From Candidatus Sumerlaea chitinivorans (GTDB lineage Bacteria > Sumerlaeota > Sumerlaeia > Sumerlaeales > Sumerlaeaceae), in NCBI GenBank assembly GCA_003290465.1, contig CP030759.1, forward strand, positions 3,100,001-3,164,000: a stretch of DNA of 64,000 nt. Reading direction: 5' to 3'. This document shows positions 39,990 to 45,861 of this stretch, in pieces (positions within the stretch are counted from its first letter, which is position 1; every line of letters starts with the position of its first letter). The notes under the pieces are model-generated. The model saw only the letters and a program-made list of their open reading frames with translations. It was not told the origin of the DNA and ran no database searches. The position numbers and the translations under genes were made by a program.

Positions 39990-41246
39990 TCACGCCAACC
40001 TACTGAATGCTTCGGCAACGACACGGCTGATCGGCAGTCCTTGTGGGCAAAGTGCCTCGGCGCGGCTCAGATTGGCTTTGCGCAGTTGCTCTCGAACGTC
40101 GAGAGGAAGCTCAGCAAACTTATCGCGTGCGAGCGCGTAGTCGCCGTAGCTGACGCCGTACATCATATAGCGGAGTACATCGGCCACGGGTGCGGGACAT
40201 CCTGCTTGCTCCTCACAGATGTGTCGGCAGCCTGCGCAGTAGCTCGAGGCTGTTGCGACAGCATACTCGCGCAAGGCCTCATAGTCGGCGGTGGTGAGTT
40301 TTGTCCCGTCGAGTGCGGCAGCCACGTTCTCTTTTAAGATTGTCAAGTTCGGCATCTGGGAGCAAATCGCGCTAATGATCGGATTTTCCCAAACCGCTTT
40401 GAGCTTGGCTTGGGCGGGCGTGAGTCCTTTTTGCAGAAAATGGCCGGCAAGCTTGAGTTCCGCCTCAGTATCCGTGCGCACAGGCCCTCCGCCCTGCGTT
40501 TTCATTGCGGTGAGACCGATCCCGGCTTTTGCACACGCTTCGATGGCGGCTTTCATGCGGTCTTTGTGCATCAGTCGGTAGTCGTATTTGACCATGATGC
40601 CGTCAATCCACCCGAGTGTCGCCGCATACTCGAGAAGGTCTTCCATATTGGAGTGGGTGCTGAAGCCAAAGAAGCGGATTTTCTTTTCCGCCTTCGCTTT
40701 TTCAGCCCATTTGCGGGTTTCGTCGTTGATTTCGTCGCGCTTGCTTACGCCGTGCACGAAATAGAGGTCGATGTAATCGGTTTTCATGCGCTCGAGCGAG
40801 CGATTCAACAGCTCGGTCATTCCTTCGGGGTCGCGCCGGTCACTTTTCGTGACGAGGAACACTTGCTTGCGGGCTTCGGGCATTTTTTCGAAGAACATCC
40901 CGATGCCGATTTCGCTGTTGCCGTTGCCGTAGCAATCGGCCGTGTCCCAATACGTGACTCCCCAATCGAGCGCTTTTTTCAGCATGAGCTGATTGTTCGG
41001 GATATCAAACATCCCACCAAGGGACAGGATGGAGACCTCCACACCCGTGCGGCCGAATTTACGCTTTGGGACTTTCGCATCTGCCGGCACCTGCACCGAT
41101 TTTTCCGAGGTGGTCGCCGGCGCTGTGGTGCTCGAGGGCTCTTCGATGGCACCGAACACTTTAGGAGCTGCCGCAAGCACGCTGACCCCAAGGGCGCTTG
41201 CCCCCACGAGGAACTCGCGGCGATTGATCTGTTGCTTGCCTTTCAT
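39990..41246 (-). CDS. TAT-exported aldo-keto reductase with C-terminal cysteine cluster
   Basis: A 418-residue protein. A twin-arginine signal INRREFLVGASALG heads the sequence and is followed by a Thr/Ser/Pro-rich linker to residue 60. The AKR barrel keeps the full catalytic tetrad: Asp101 and Tyr106 in YWDTADCYGNGN, Lys134 in LVTKSD and His165 in YFVHG. The C-terminal extension holds YCAGCRHICEEQAGC (Cys337, 340, 344, 349) and a later Cys in EALCPQG, a likely 4Fe-4S site. AKRs normally use NADPH, which is absent outside the cytoplasm, so the cluster may deliver electrons instead, or the protein may fold with its cofactor before Tat export. Its ATG overlaps the stop of the polyferredoxin gene by four bases (ATGA), implying coupled translation. 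Confidence 0.9.
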   Translation of the reverse strand: MKGKQQINRREFLVGASALGVSVLAAAPKVFGAIEEPSSTTAPATTSEKSVQVPADAKVPKRKFGRTGVEVSILSLGGMFDIPNNQLMLKKALDWGVTYWDTADCYGNGNSEIGIGMFFEKMPEARKQVFLVTKSDRRDPEGMTELLNRSLERMKTDYIDLYFVHGVSKRDEINDETRKWAEKAKAEKKIRFFGFSTHSNMEDLLEYAATLGWIDGIMVKYDYRLMHKDRMKAAIEACAKAGIGLTAMKTQGGGPVRTDTEAELKLAGHFLQKGLTPAQAKLKAVWENPIISAICSQMPNLTILKENVAAALDGTKLTTADYEALREYAVATASSYCAGCRHICEEQAGCPAPVADVLRYMMYGVSYGDYALARDKFAELPLDVREQLRKANLSRAEALCPQGLPISRVVAEAFSRLA

Positions 41247-43012
41247 AGTTTCAGACTCCTTTCTGCCAAGCGCAGTGCGCTGGCGGGATTCCGGGATTCA
41301 TTTTCTGCCGTCACGCGGATTGCGCGCAATCCGCTCACCGGACAATCGTGCTCACAAATGCCACAGCCGATGCACAGATTGGGCTCCACGTGTGGCCTTT
41401 GCAAGCGCACCAAAATCGCGACTCGCTGAGCCTCGCCCCACTGGGCGGGCTCGCCTGCGAGGATGAGACTGTTCGTTGTTTGATTGGTGATTTGTAGCCG
41501 CGCCTCACGCTGGTCCAGTGGCGCGAGGAAGTAGTCACCCGTAGCATAACGCCCCACCGGCAATTTGGCATTCTTGAGGATGACTTCGCGGCCGCGAATT
41601 GTTTCGACGTGGAACACCCCCTCACGTATGATCTGATACTCCTCACGCACAAAAATCGCTTTTGGCGTAACTGGGCACACTTCCTCGCACACGATGCAAG
41701 GAGTATCGAGTGCCCACGGCAGGCAGCGGCTGCGGTCCACAAACGCAGTCCCAATGCGGATGGGCCCTTGTTCCGCATACTGCCCCACACCGCGTTTTTC
41801 CTCGACGGTGAGGGGGCGAATCGCAGCTGTAGGACAGACGTGCCCACACGCAACGCAGTTGGGCATGCATCCGCTCGTCCCGATGCGGAAATTCAATACC
41901 GGTGTCCAGAGTGCCTCAAATCCGCGATCCAGCCCAGCCGGCATAAGCACGTTTGTGGGACAAACGCGCATGCACTCCCCGCACTTGATGCAGCGTTGCA
42001 GGAATTCCGGCTCGGGTAGGCTGCCGGGGGGACGTACCAATAGCGGATTTGTATTCGTGTGGACACTGCCGTTGAGACGCATCATCGGCACAGCGAGGAG
42101 ACTTGCACCCAGCGAAGCGAGCACTCCGCGCCGCCTCAGGTCCGGAGGCAACTTCACCTCACCACCGTCGGATTCCCGGATCCGGTACTCGAGGAACTTT
42201 TTTGTGCACGCATCATCCAAGCAATTGAAGCACATCAGGCACTCGCTGATGCGGATGGAGCCAGCCGGATCGCAAGCTCCTTCGCATGCCGGCTCGCACA
42301 GCGTGCAATCTGTGCATTTGCGTGCATTCTTCGCGATTCGAAAAAGCGAAATCCGCGCGAAGAGCCCAAGCAACGCACCCAAGGGGCAAAGAAAGCGGCA
42401 GTAAAAGCGCGGGATATAGAAATTTGCAAAAATGGTCGCAAAGAAGAGGGCACCGAGCACCCATCCGCCCTCGTATTGCCGTGGTGCCGTGGAAAGCGAT
42501 TTGCCAAGCAACATTTCCACGGCGGGCAGTACGGCCATGTTCACGGATCGGTGGATGAATGGAATCGGGTCCAATAACCCGGATTGCAAGATGCGGTCTC
42601 GCCCCCACGGCCACAACATCATGCCCAAGAACACAAGCAGGATGTAGTACTTGATGACCTGTGCCCGCCGGAAACGATTCGCCTCGATTTTCTGTTTATG
42701 GTTGCGTGGCAATTGCCCCAGCCAGCCAAAGAACTGGTGGAGCGTCCCAAAAGGGCATACCCACCCGCAGAAGATTCGGCCAAAAATGATCGTGACAATA
42801 ATGGTGACCAACGCCCACGCCAATCCTGCGTAAAGCGTGTGGGTGGTTAGGAGTGTTCCAATCGCAACCAACGGGTCCAGTTGGAGGATCAGATTGATTG
42901 GCCAGCCACGAAGCTGCCACCACTCCGTACCGAAATTTGCAACGATGCAAAACCACACTAAGAGGGCCAAGAAGAAGACTTGGCTTATCCGCCGGACGAT
43001 GACGATTCTCAT
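41243..43012 (-). CDS. Membrane polyferredoxin (NapH-like fused to NapG-like Fe-S domains)
   Basis: A 589-residue protein. About five transmembrane segments lie in the first 230 residues, with the paired NapH/NosR-type motifs RIFCGWVCPFGTLHQ and YCRFLCPLGALLGL on the membrane faces. A ferredoxin pair follows (CTDCTLCEPACEGAC and CLMCFNCLDDAC). After another hydrophobic stretch (GVLASLGASLLAVPM), a soluble NapG-like half adds CIKCGECMRVCP, CVACGHVCP, CIVCEEVCP and CIGCGICEHDCP, enough for at least four to six 4Fe-4S clusters. This is a quinol-to-periplasm (or reverse) electron conduit, and the fusion of the NapH and NapG types is notable. It sits between the DUF362 and aldo-keto reductase genes, spaced four bases from the first and overlapping the second. 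Confidence 0.92.
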   Translation of the reverse strand: MRIVIVRRISQVFFLALLVWFCIVANFGTEWWQLRGWPINLILQLDPLVAIGTLLTTHTLYAGLAWALVTIIVTIIFGRIFCGWVCPFGTLHQFFGWLGQLPRNHKQKIEANRFRRAQVIKYYILLVFLGMMLWPWGRDRILQSGLLDPIPFIHRSVNMAVLPAVEMLLGKSLSTAPRQYEGGWVLGALFFATIFANFYIPRFYCRFLCPLGALLGLFARISLFRIAKNARKCTDCTLCEPACEGACDPAGSIRISECLMCFNCLDDACTKKFLEYRIRESDGGEVKLPPDLRRRGVLASLGASLLAVPMMRLNGSVHTNTNPLLVRPPGSLPEPEFLQRCIKCGECMRVCPTNVLMPAGLDRGFEALWTPVLNFRIGTSGCMPNCVACGHVCPTAAIRPLTVEEKRGVGQYAEQGPIRIGTAFVDRSRCLPWALDTPCIVCEEVCPVTPKAIFVREEYQIIREGVFHVETIRGREVILKNAKLPVGRYATGDYFLAPLDQREARLQITNQTTNSLILAGEPAQWGEAQRVAILVRLQRPHVEPNLCIGCGICEHDCPVSGLRAIRVTAENESRNPASALRLAERSLKL

Positions 43013-43016
43013 GATG

Positions 43017-44018
43017 TTAAACCTCCACGCGGATGGGGTTCAGAGAATTGAAGTTTGTGGTGCCGCAGCCAGCCGCCTCCGCTCGCGCCAGATAGGGCAA
43101 ATCACTCACCGTACGCCCGAGTAGCGTGGCTCCGAAGGCGTCCGCAGCTACCTGATCCGTACTTACCACAAGGGTGTTTGCCTCGCGCAGGTCTGCCGTC
43201 GAGCCGCCCGTGGGGCCGTTGCTGACCATGACCGTGGTGCCGTCCAGCACGACAAACGTCGGGCGCATGAGCATTGCAAGTTCGGTGATGATCGTGTGGA
43301 TATCCTGATGGAACGTGTTGCGGCGGCCTCCCAGTAAGCCGTACCAATTCTTCATCGTCATGGAGGCGCCAGCGCGATTGTGATCTTTGACGGGGGTCAC
43401 GCCGATGACCTTTGTCGCGCCCTCCAGCGCCGCCGTCATCACCGGCCAATTGCGGATAAGTTGTCCGTTCTCGAGGGTGAGCTGGCGGAAAGCGTTGGGG
43501 CGTGGCAAAATAAGGCGTGCGCCAGCTTCTTCCGCTGCGGCTCCGACTCCGCTGAGACGAAAGCAACTTTCTGGGTCGTTGATGGGGTTGTCGGCCACCC
43601 GCACCTCGCGGGCCCCCGCTTTGCGGCACAACGTGACGATTGCGCGCACCAGATCGGGATGGGTCGTAGCACCCAGCATCGCTGGCGAGGCAAAGGCTGC
43701 ATTGACCTTGATGAGCACAACGTCGCCACGGCTCACAAAACGGCTGATTCCACCCAAAGACTCCAGCGCGGCCTCGAGAGACTTTTCGCGTTTGCTCCCC
43801 TGCGCGATGGCCATTTTGCCTCGCAGGTCCGCGATACTAAAATCCGGTAGCTGAGTCAGGGGGGGCGCGGACATTTGACCTGTGGGCCCGACAGGGTCGT
43901 AGAAGTAGTAGGTGGCGAGCGATGCCGCTCCAATCGCGGCGCCAGCTTGAGCCAATTGCATGAGGAAACGCCGCCGACTGATTCGTTCCGCGTCCCTCGG
44001 ATGTTCTGGTTTCGTCAT
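43017..44018 (-). CDS. TAT-signal DUF362 protein
   Basis: A 333-residue protein from the ATG at 44018. That ATG overlaps the upstream stop in ATGA, and a twin-arginine signal follows (ISRRRFLMQLAQAGAAIGAA). The DUF362 domain covers about 75-330: DVVLIKVNAAFASPA, REVRVADNPINDPESCF, VIGVTPVKDHNRAG, FVVLDGTTVMVSNGPTGG. DUF362 proteins are common beside ferredoxin-type and NapH-type genes and are thought to be redox or Fe-S related, but no reaction is established. There is no 4Fe-4S motif in this copy. Location downstream of the DUF6599-like gene and four bases ahead of the polyferredoxin gene implies a joint complex at the outer face of the cytoplasmic membrane. Confidence 0.9.
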   Translation of the reverse strand: MTKPEHPRDAERISRRRFLMQLAQAGAAIGAASLATYYFYDPVGPTGQMSAPPLTQLPDFSIADLRGKMAIAQGSKREKSLEAALESLGGISRFVSRGDVVLIKVNAAFASPAMLGATTHPDLVRAIVTLCRKAGAREVRVADNPINDPESCFRLSGVGAAAEEAGARLILPRPNAFRQLTLENGQLIRNWPVMTAALEGATKVIGVTPVKDHNRAGASMTMKNWYGLLGGRRNTFHQDIHTIITELAMLMRPTFVVLDGTTVMVSNGPTGGSTADLREANTLVVSTDQVAADAFGATLLGRTVSDLPYLARAEAAGCGTTNFNSLNPIRVEV

Positions 44019-45046
44019 GGTTGTGTAGACTCCGTTGTTTTCAAAAACGCTTCGAGGACACGGCATGCTGCCTCGAATGAGGGCGAGGCATGGACTCCAT
44101 ATAGTATAGGACCGTGGCTGCCGACAAGTTCAAATTGCCCGAGCGCGCTCACCCCCAACACGCCACTTGGCAGACGGCTCGCCTGCTCCGCCGTCAGTGC
44201 GTCTGCCCCCATTTCCTCTTTCAGGAACTGGTAGTAAGCCTGAGCCAACTGCGTACTTTCGTCCGCACTCGCGCGTTTGCTTACAAATAGGGTCACTGTT
44301 GTCCCCTCAACGGAGTAATCCGCCGTAATCACGCGATCGAGCTTGTCGTAGCCAAACGCATCCTTCAAAATAAGCTTAATCGTTTCGGGCCTGAGACCTT
44401 CCTTCGGCAGGTAGTTGACCGCCTCAAGATCTCCTTTTTCGGTGGGGAGTCTGCGGGCGAAACTGATGGCAAGCGCTCGCATCGCGCTTTGCAACCTCTC
44501 GGCGTCCGTCGCCCCGATCACCTCCACATAGTACTTCCCAGAGACAAAAAAGACCGCGTTGCCGGTTGCATACGCGAGCGGCCCGATCTCTGGAACCGCT
44601 GCTCCTGCGCGTCGTTGGGCGCTATATACTGCAAAAGCGTTTGTGGGGTTACCCATGTCGTAGGCAAACACTTCGAACCATTGGTCCGTAGCATTTGCGA
44701 CAGCGAATCGCTGGCAGAAAAGCTTTACGAAGCCGAGGTCGAGATAGAGCTCGGCGCGCCCATCAATCTTGTCCGACAGGTTCTCGCGCCCAAATTCTTC
44801 GCGCGAACTCAGAGGCGCCGTGTTCGTGGTGATCAAGTCTGCAAGCGGGATGGCGCATAGATCCTGATCGATGGGCTGCGAACGTTCCTTGTGCTCGGCG
44901 GTCTGCGATGAAAAATCGATGTGAAAGATGGATTCGTTATAATGAAACTGTTTTTGCCAGACCGCAATTGCCACCAGGCCTAGGCACACCATTAAGGCAA
45001 GACTTACGGTCGTTTCGACAGGGCCAGGTCTTTTGCGGCGTTTCAT
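44015..45046 (-). CDS. Membrane-anchored DUF6599-like protein
   Basis: A 343-residue protein. The ATG at 45046 (MKRRKRPGPVETTVSLAL) is preferred because a single N-terminal transmembrane segment follows at once (VSLALMVCLGLVAIAVW); a GTG at 45100 would add 18 residues, and neither has a clear ribosome site. The periplasmic part contains two similar alpha/beta halves (FEVFAYDMGNPTNAFAVYS and TLFVSKRASADESTQLAQAY). This matches a family recorded as DUF6599, which I recognise only by style. It is the first gene of the four-gene redox operon, and its stop overlaps the DUF362 start by four bases. The function is unknown; a scaffold or sensor for the complex is possible. Confidence 0.75.
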   Translation of the reverse strand: MKRRKRPGPVETTVSLALMVCLGLVAIAVWQKQFHYNESIFHIDFSSQTAEHKERSQPIDQDLCAIPLADLITTNTAPLSSREEFGRENLSDKIDGRAELYLDLGFVKLFCQRFAVANATDQWFEVFAYDMGNPTNAFAVYSAQRRAGAAVPEIGPLAYATGNAVFFVSGKYYVEVIGATDAERLQSAMRALAISFARRLPTEKGDLEAVNYLPKEGLRPETIKLILKDAFGYDKLDRVITADYSVEGTTVTLFVSKRASADESTQLAQAYYQFLKEEMGADALTAEQASRLPSGVLGVSALGQFELVGSHGPILYGVHASPSFEAACRVLEAFLKTTESTQP

Positions 45047-45468: not shown

Positions 45469-45861
45469 TTACGCCAAGTTGCTACCCGAGGGTTCAGATT
45501 CGCACGCGCAATCAGGAGCGCCGGCGAGCTCTCGTTCAAGAGCTTGGAGCGCGTCCAGAATGGTAGCGAATTTCTTTCCGAATTCTGACAGACGGTACTC
45601 GACCCTCAAAGGGGGCTTATCACCGTAAACCTGGCGCTCCACAAGACCGTAGTGCGTTAGTTTCTTTAGTCGTTCATTCATGACTTTTGCAGATAATCCC
45701 GCGCAATGCTTTTGGATCTTGCTTGGCCTGTGGGGCCCCATGGCGAGAAGGCTCAAGATTTGAAGGGACCACTTGCATCCCAAAACCTCTTCCAACACCG
45801 CCGCGACCCGAAATGGCACTGCTGCGTGGCTGTGGGCGGATTGCTTTGAAGACCTCACCAT
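45469..45861 (-). CDS. HxlR-family transcriptional regulator
   Basis: A 130-residue winged-helix protein. The family core is complete: VLGCKWSLQILSLLAMGP, then RPSKIQKHCAGLSAKVMNER with the recognition helix LKKLTHYGLVERQVY and the wing RVEYRLSEFGKKF. HxlR proteins bind inverted repeats as dimers and several (YodB, HypR types) sense quinones or disulfide stress by cysteines. Here Cys29 sits at the start of the first core helix and CAC lies near the C-terminus, so redox sensing is plausible but not shown. The gene diverges from the thioredoxin-like gene, and a palindrome overlaps its own leader. The four-gene redox operon lies downstream in the same direction. Confidence 0.94.
   Translation of the reverse strand: MVRSSKQSAHSHAAVPFRVAAVLEEVLGCKWSLQILSLLAMGPHRPSKIQKHCAGLSAKVMNERLKKLTHYGLVERQVYGDKPPLRVEYRLSEFGKKFATILDALQALERELAGAPDCACESEPSGSNLA

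Follow-up and report, generated by a model that had tools for sequence, protein, structure and literature searches.

A recurrent four-gene cassette associating a NapH-NapG-type polyferredoxin with a Tat-signal aldo-keto reductase in Sumerlaeota, Desulfobacterales, and other lineages

The operon and its described relatives

Each single domain discussed here is already known, as is the layout of a fused NapH-NapG polyferredoxin (PMC5449189). The closest described protein of this kind, Q1NSB0 from the delta proteobacterium MLMS-1, has a transmembrane part that is both Sec- and Tat-dependent; the report on it gives no partner genes or function and makes no mention of keto or DUF362 (PMC5449189). 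NapGH is a quinol dehydrogenase (PMC5449189), and DUF362 shares a Pfam clan, CL0471, with LarA (PMC11770544). In the open-access literature (most subscription journals lie outside this scope) we found no description of the cassette reported below, no paper on DUF6599, none on DUF362 that concerns this operon, and none treating NapH, aldo keto reductase, and Desulfo together. Compared with that literature, the cassette, its taxonomic spread, a putative one-cluster aldo-keto reductase (AKR) with altered nucleotide contacts, and an exported partner predicted to be LarA-like are apparently new.

The window, the whole 64,000-nucleotide stretch of DNA analyzed here (G000:C1:3100001-3164000), lies within a 3.29-Mb single-contig genome of Sumerlaeota. 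It contains four consecutive genes, all on the minus strand. The first encodes a DUF6599 protein of 343 aa (44015..45046; PF20244, 168.6 bits against a gathering cutoff of 27 bits) and the second a DUF362 protein of 333 aa with the Tat signal SRRRFL (43017..44018; PF04015, 144.8 bits against a gathering cutoff of 24 bits). These are followed by a NapH-NapG fusion (NapHG) of 589 aa that matches Fer4 Pfam families (41243..43012), and by an AKR of 418 aa with the Tat signal NRREFL (39990..41246; PF00248, 100.8 bits against a cutoff of 24 bits). The initial annotation had linked the genes by two ATGA overlaps and a four-base gap, and all three are exact: the overlaps lie at 44018-44015 (DUF6599/DUF362) and 41246-41243 (NapHG/AKR), and the gap between DUF362 and NapHG at 43016-43013. 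Short overlaps taken alone are weak evidence of linkage; the weight rests on the retention of the gene set in several phyla and on the co-occurrence test described below. A gene for an HxlR-type protein (45469..45861; PF01638 HxlR, 69.1 bits), likewise on the minus strand, lies about 420 bases upstream of the operon and is a possible regulator of it; HxlR-family members often sense electrophiles. No HxlR gene was seen beside the cassette in the other loci compared, and one promoter/terminator scan gave a result at chance level.

The fusion agrees with its initial description as a membrane-anchored polyferredoxin. Its NapH-like membrane half carries two CX3CP motifs and two Cys motifs, and its NapG-like half four 4-Cys motifs; the window copy has thirty Cys residues, and the motif Cys are all but invariant in the alignment. 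An internal twin-arginine (R294-R295) separates the two halves, and is RR in 21 and KR in three of 24 homologues, in all of which a weakly hydrophobic segment follows. Two N-terminal twin-arginine signals had been recognized at this operon, those of DUF362 and the AKR, and both stand; this third, internal motif had been missed, and its presence makes Tat export of the NapG half probable as well. The MLMS-1 protein has the same arrangement, with a NapH-like membrane half, an internal twin-arginine that precedes the last transmembrane segment, and a NapG-like half with four cluster motifs, and the Cys count of the window fusion also fits approximately seven clusters, as in that protein (PMC5449189). 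By description, the twin-arginine falls near residue 333-337 in MLMS-1 and at 282-355 in the cassette fusions. On these sequence features the fusion matches the Sec-Tat dual-inserted architecture, the dependence on Sec and Tat being known for the MLMS-1 protein only.

The fusion also resembles NapG and NapH of the periplasmic nitrate reductase in its CX3CP and ferredoxin motifs, in its division into membrane and Tat halves, and in the quinol-to-periplasm flow expected of it. Unlike NapG and NapH, however, it is a single polypeptide with an AKR as its partner, and it scores far under the curated cutoffs of the corresponding NCBIfam models (62.1 against 213.05 bits for NapH/MauN and 56.9 against 178.85 bits for MauM/NapG). 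The cassette is thus best described as akin to NapGH-type electron transfer between quinol and periplasm, as a variant of it. The genome encodes a second NapH-NapG fusion (G000:C1 ~2763900-2765600; L120:6372-8099), with an internal LTRRGIL motif and without DUF362 or AKR alongside. The next open reading frame appears by eye to be MqnA-like; MqnA belongs to the menaquinone pathway, and the adjacency is consistent with a menaquinone link.

Distribution and co-occurrence of the cassette

A search of genome contigs with the AKR gave 63 relatives, and the loci of these were then searched with all four window proteins. DUF362, NapHG, and AKR occur together in at least 26 loci, at least 24 of which also have DUF6599; the counts are lower bounds, since in some cases the contig stops partway through the region. 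Copies of the cassette are found in Sumerlaeota, Desulfobacterales, Verrucomicrobiota, and other lineages. Most full loci keep the same gene order, with DUF6599 first in most; the AKR is placed first in a few (L024 and L027), and three loci (L008, L019, and L047) have two or three AKR copies. At two of these, tandem AKRs end the cassette (three at L008:5737-10259 and two at L019:7995-10509). By its AKR, the closest public relative is a Sumerlaeota MAG (L005; 69% identity; L090 is the contig of L005), and the Sumerlaeota relatives L086-L089 share the gene order.

Among 366 drawn genomes, mostly from other phyla, 13 have the AKR at E ≤ 1e-90, and five of the 13 lie outside Sumerlaeota. Four of these five have all four genes (L115-L118), and the contig of the fifth stops at the AKR. 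L115 is the contig of L055, and L116, L117, and L118 come from genomes of unrelated families. Directly upstream of the cassette in L118 (1475-3035) are a metallo-beta-lactamase-fold protein and a Tat-bearing intradiol-dioxygenase-like protein.

The association was also tested within a single order. NapHG is present in 27 and absent from 69 of a sample of 96 Desulfobacterales genomes. The AKR occurs in 26 of the 27 positive genomes vs. two of 30 negative genomes (P = 8e-13, Fisher's test), the 30 having been picked by hand from the 69 before the AKR was looked up, with a bias toward larger genomes; all are drafts, and the E-value limits of the searches were unequal (1e-120 and 1e-90). Coordinates read by eye place the AKR next to NapHG in 20 of the 26 co-occurring genomes. 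The initial annotation proposed a dedicated unit of four genes, and the gene order kept across several phyla, together with this co-occurrence, bears the proposal out: the genes are not rarely found together.

Against a dedicated unit, some AKRs stand alone. Approximately 27 tree rows have an AKR without other cassette genes in view, partly because they come from short contigs. When 25 solo-AKR genomes, all drafts, were searched, NapHG was found elsewhere in 15, and 10 gave no match. The solo copies retain both the Cys set and the catalytic tetrad described below, and may share a conduit encoded elsewhere in the genome. A family of secreted proteins of ~203 aa (L033:445-1056, L039, L042, L046, L054, and L065) is found just upstream of solo AKRs and, in L054, just upstream of a full cassette. 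The two examined have no Pfam match.

The aldo-keto reductase and its cofactor

The AKR consists of a barrel (approximately residues 58-330) and a C-terminal helical domain that holds C337, C340, C344, and C400. In a fold comparison its predicted model (pLDDT 86.4) matched AKR chains at Z 27-30 over residues ~55-340. The closest folds include the soluble NADP(H) enzymes Tm1743, YghZ, and L-galactose dehydrogenases (Z ~28-30), with which it shares the catalytic tetrad: among 50 homologues, D101, K134, and H165 are kept in 50 and Y106 in 49. Unlike these soluble enzymes, the window AKR would be exported, has an additional Fe-S-type domain, and has its NADP(H) contacts replaced. No match in the PDB fold comparison spanned the C-terminal Cys domain, a comparison that barely probed this domain and supports no claim of a new fold. 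The initial annotation described an added Cys cluster and proposed the conservation of its cysteines in homologues as a test: C337, C340, C344, and C400 are invariant in 50 of 50, and the fifth Cys, C350, is not conserved. In the farthest cassette AKRs, judged by eye, the Cys pattern is still present, as is the AMKT-motif lysine, and C295 is lost.

More remote Tat-AKRs (L078-L082) share the Tat signal, the barrel, the C-terminal Cys domain, and replacement at the Gln190 position. They hold a pair of ferredoxin-type Cys motifs and are matched by Fer4 dicluster models, whereas the window AKR family has the ligands of one cluster only. Aligned to them, the family retains Cys one to three of motif 1 together with the final Cys of motif 2, which in two-cluster ferredoxins are the ligands of one cluster, and lacks the ligands of the other. 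Losses distributed in this way speak for the reality of the cluster that remains, a single putative [4Fe-4S] cluster in the C-terminal domain.

The same alignments bear on the nucleotide. Guided by NADP-bound Tm1743 and by AKRs of the same genome, we compared the positions that contact NADP(H), naming them by what we take to be the AKR1C9 numbering. Gln190 and Ser271 are Met in 50 of 50 homologues, Ser217 is Lys in 50 of 50, Lys270 is Gln or Glu in 46 of 50, and the Arg276 equivalent is mostly Ile or Leu. The canonical contact residues thus appear to be consistently lost in the cassette AKR, and the doubt already expressed about its use of NADPH is strengthened by these replacements. The loss is not complete, however: the S196 and N307 equivalents are retained, and the Asp/Tyr/Lys/His tetrad is kept, as a nicotinamide enzyme needs.

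These retained residues and the intact barrel are what would be expected if the AKR held a tight, non-exchanging nicotinamide loaded before Tat export, its Fe-S cluster being structural or used for docking. Tat exports folded, cofactor-loaded proteins, and the nicotinamide of glucose-fructose oxidoreductase is loaded in this way. We nevertheless regard a bound nicotinamide of this kind as unlikely, since other residues nearly always occupy the Gln190, Lys270, Ser271, and Arg276 positions, and since the co-occurrence with a polyferredoxin is left unexplained if no electrons enter or leave.

Partner proteins and the proposed electron path

An AlphaFold2 model of the DUF362 protein (pLDDT 90.7) matches LarA chains at Z 14.8-16.8 over ~205 residues, corresponding to the LarA N-domain, and the next family at Z 5.7. 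The model thus predicts a fold like the N-domain of LarA, the nickel-pincer racemase. In a 26-row alignment, C131 and C152 are invariant, as are the His, Gly, Ser, and Lys of H213-x2-(A/S)-G-x-S-x3-K223; when aligned by eye, LarA homologues of these genomes have the same His-x2-AG-x-Ser-x3-Lys spacing, and the motif residues presumably correspond to the catalytic and tether residues of LarA. Unlike LarA, the DUF362 protein carries a Tat signal and has no counterpart of the LarA C-terminal domain. A nickel-pincer (NPN) cofactor, although tempting from the fold, is unsupported since larC does not track the cassette: LarC is present in 23 of 27 cassette-positive and 26 of 30 cassette-negative Desulfobacterales, and was not found in three AKR-bearing Sumerlaeota relatives, two of which were read as full cassettes. 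Profile-profile comparison between DUF362 and LarA homologues found nothing, and a DUF362 profile gave only chance matches to PDB sequences. The Sumerlaeota relatives G019, G028, and G030 have a LarA N-domain protein and gave no LarC match. Two more remote DUF362 proteins are encoded elsewhere in the window's genome (G000:C1 ~2190977-2191744 and ~1763287-1763667).

The DUF6599 protein has a hydrophobic N-terminal segment, likely a signal anchor, and no cofactor motif was seen in its sequence. Its gene lies directly beside two-cluster Tat-AKRs at L091:5808-8104 and L092:6629-8843, without DUF362 or NapHG, which suggests that AKR and DUF6599 are an older pair.

The invariant Cys pair, the conserved His and Lys, and the LarA-like fold suggest that DUF362 may hold a cofactor that needs reduction. 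Polyferredoxin electrons might then serve to mature or reactivate an enzyme, with the AKR or DUF362 as client or chaperone; NapH/MauN relatives often serve maturation, MauM/N and NosR being the models. We consider such a role in assembly or repair very improbable: neighbor clustering revealed no additional client gene conserved beside the cassette, and the Cys set and tetrad kept by the solo AKR paralogues are a better fit to a family of enzymes.

We propose, with about even confidence, that the four genes specify an electron-transfer system of the cell envelope in which a quinol-linked NapHG conduit serves a one-cluster periplasmic AKR. The fusion would sit in the inner membrane, where its NapH half would accept electrons from the quinol pool (or from a cytoplasmic donor) and its Tat-exported NapG half would pass them, at the outer face, through approximately four [4Fe-4S] clusters. 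These electrons would be accepted by the Tat-exported AKR through its one [4Fe-4S] cluster (C337, C340, C344, and C400), and the enzyme would act on a small carbonyl, or on some other electrophile, with no free exchange of NADP(H). DUF362 and membrane-anchored DUF6599 would be partner subunits or assembly factors. The clusters, the membrane topology, the electron path, and the formation of a complex are all inferred. The initial annotation reached a similar interpretation, which is partly supported here; it had overlooked the resemblance of the predicted DUF362 fold to LarA and the precedent for the fusion in MLMS-1 (PMC5449189).

The reductive direction, from quinol to periplasm, is assumed by analogy with NapGH, NosR, and MauMN. 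Nothing in the sequence fixes it, and the periplasmic AKR could instead oxidize an alcohol or hemiacetal, with the polyferredoxin delivering the electrons to the menaquinone pool, in the manner of periplasmic quinone-linked dehydrogenases. The L-galactose dehydrogenases among the closest folds of the AKR would suit such a role, and the Desulfobacterales that bear the cassette are often complete oxidizers. We nevertheless find this reversal rather unlikely, since outward transfer of quinol electrons is what has been described for the NapH/NapG, NosR, and MauM/N relatives.

The gap in this electron-transfer model lies in the chemistry at the AKR. A lone [4Fe-4S] cluster cannot accept or donate hydride, so two-electron carbonyl chemistry needs an extra step or cofactor; the candidates are a radical step, a second cofactor, and a nicotinamide that has been retained. 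A more specific reading, in which a nicotinamide-independent AKR is fed single electrons from quinol through the polyferredoxin to its one [4Fe-4S] cluster, alongside an exported LarA-fold protein with a cofactor other than NPN, is possible but doubtful. If true, this novel reading would mean new carbonyl chemistry together with a periplasmic respiratory branch.

The cassette would supply a set of candidate partners for a published Sec-Tat polyferredoxin architecture that had no assigned function, and DUF362, DUF6599, and the Tat-AKR, three families with no function assigned in this setting, would gain a shared context. A cultured carrier of the AKR exists, the Desulfosarcina cetonica assembly being among the members found, so the system is open to testing. 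If the proposal is true, an uncharacterized branch of respiratory electron transfer would be common to sulfate reducers, Sumerlaeota, Verrucomicrobiota, and others. The AKR would then break with NADP(H), the cofactor that defines its superfamily.
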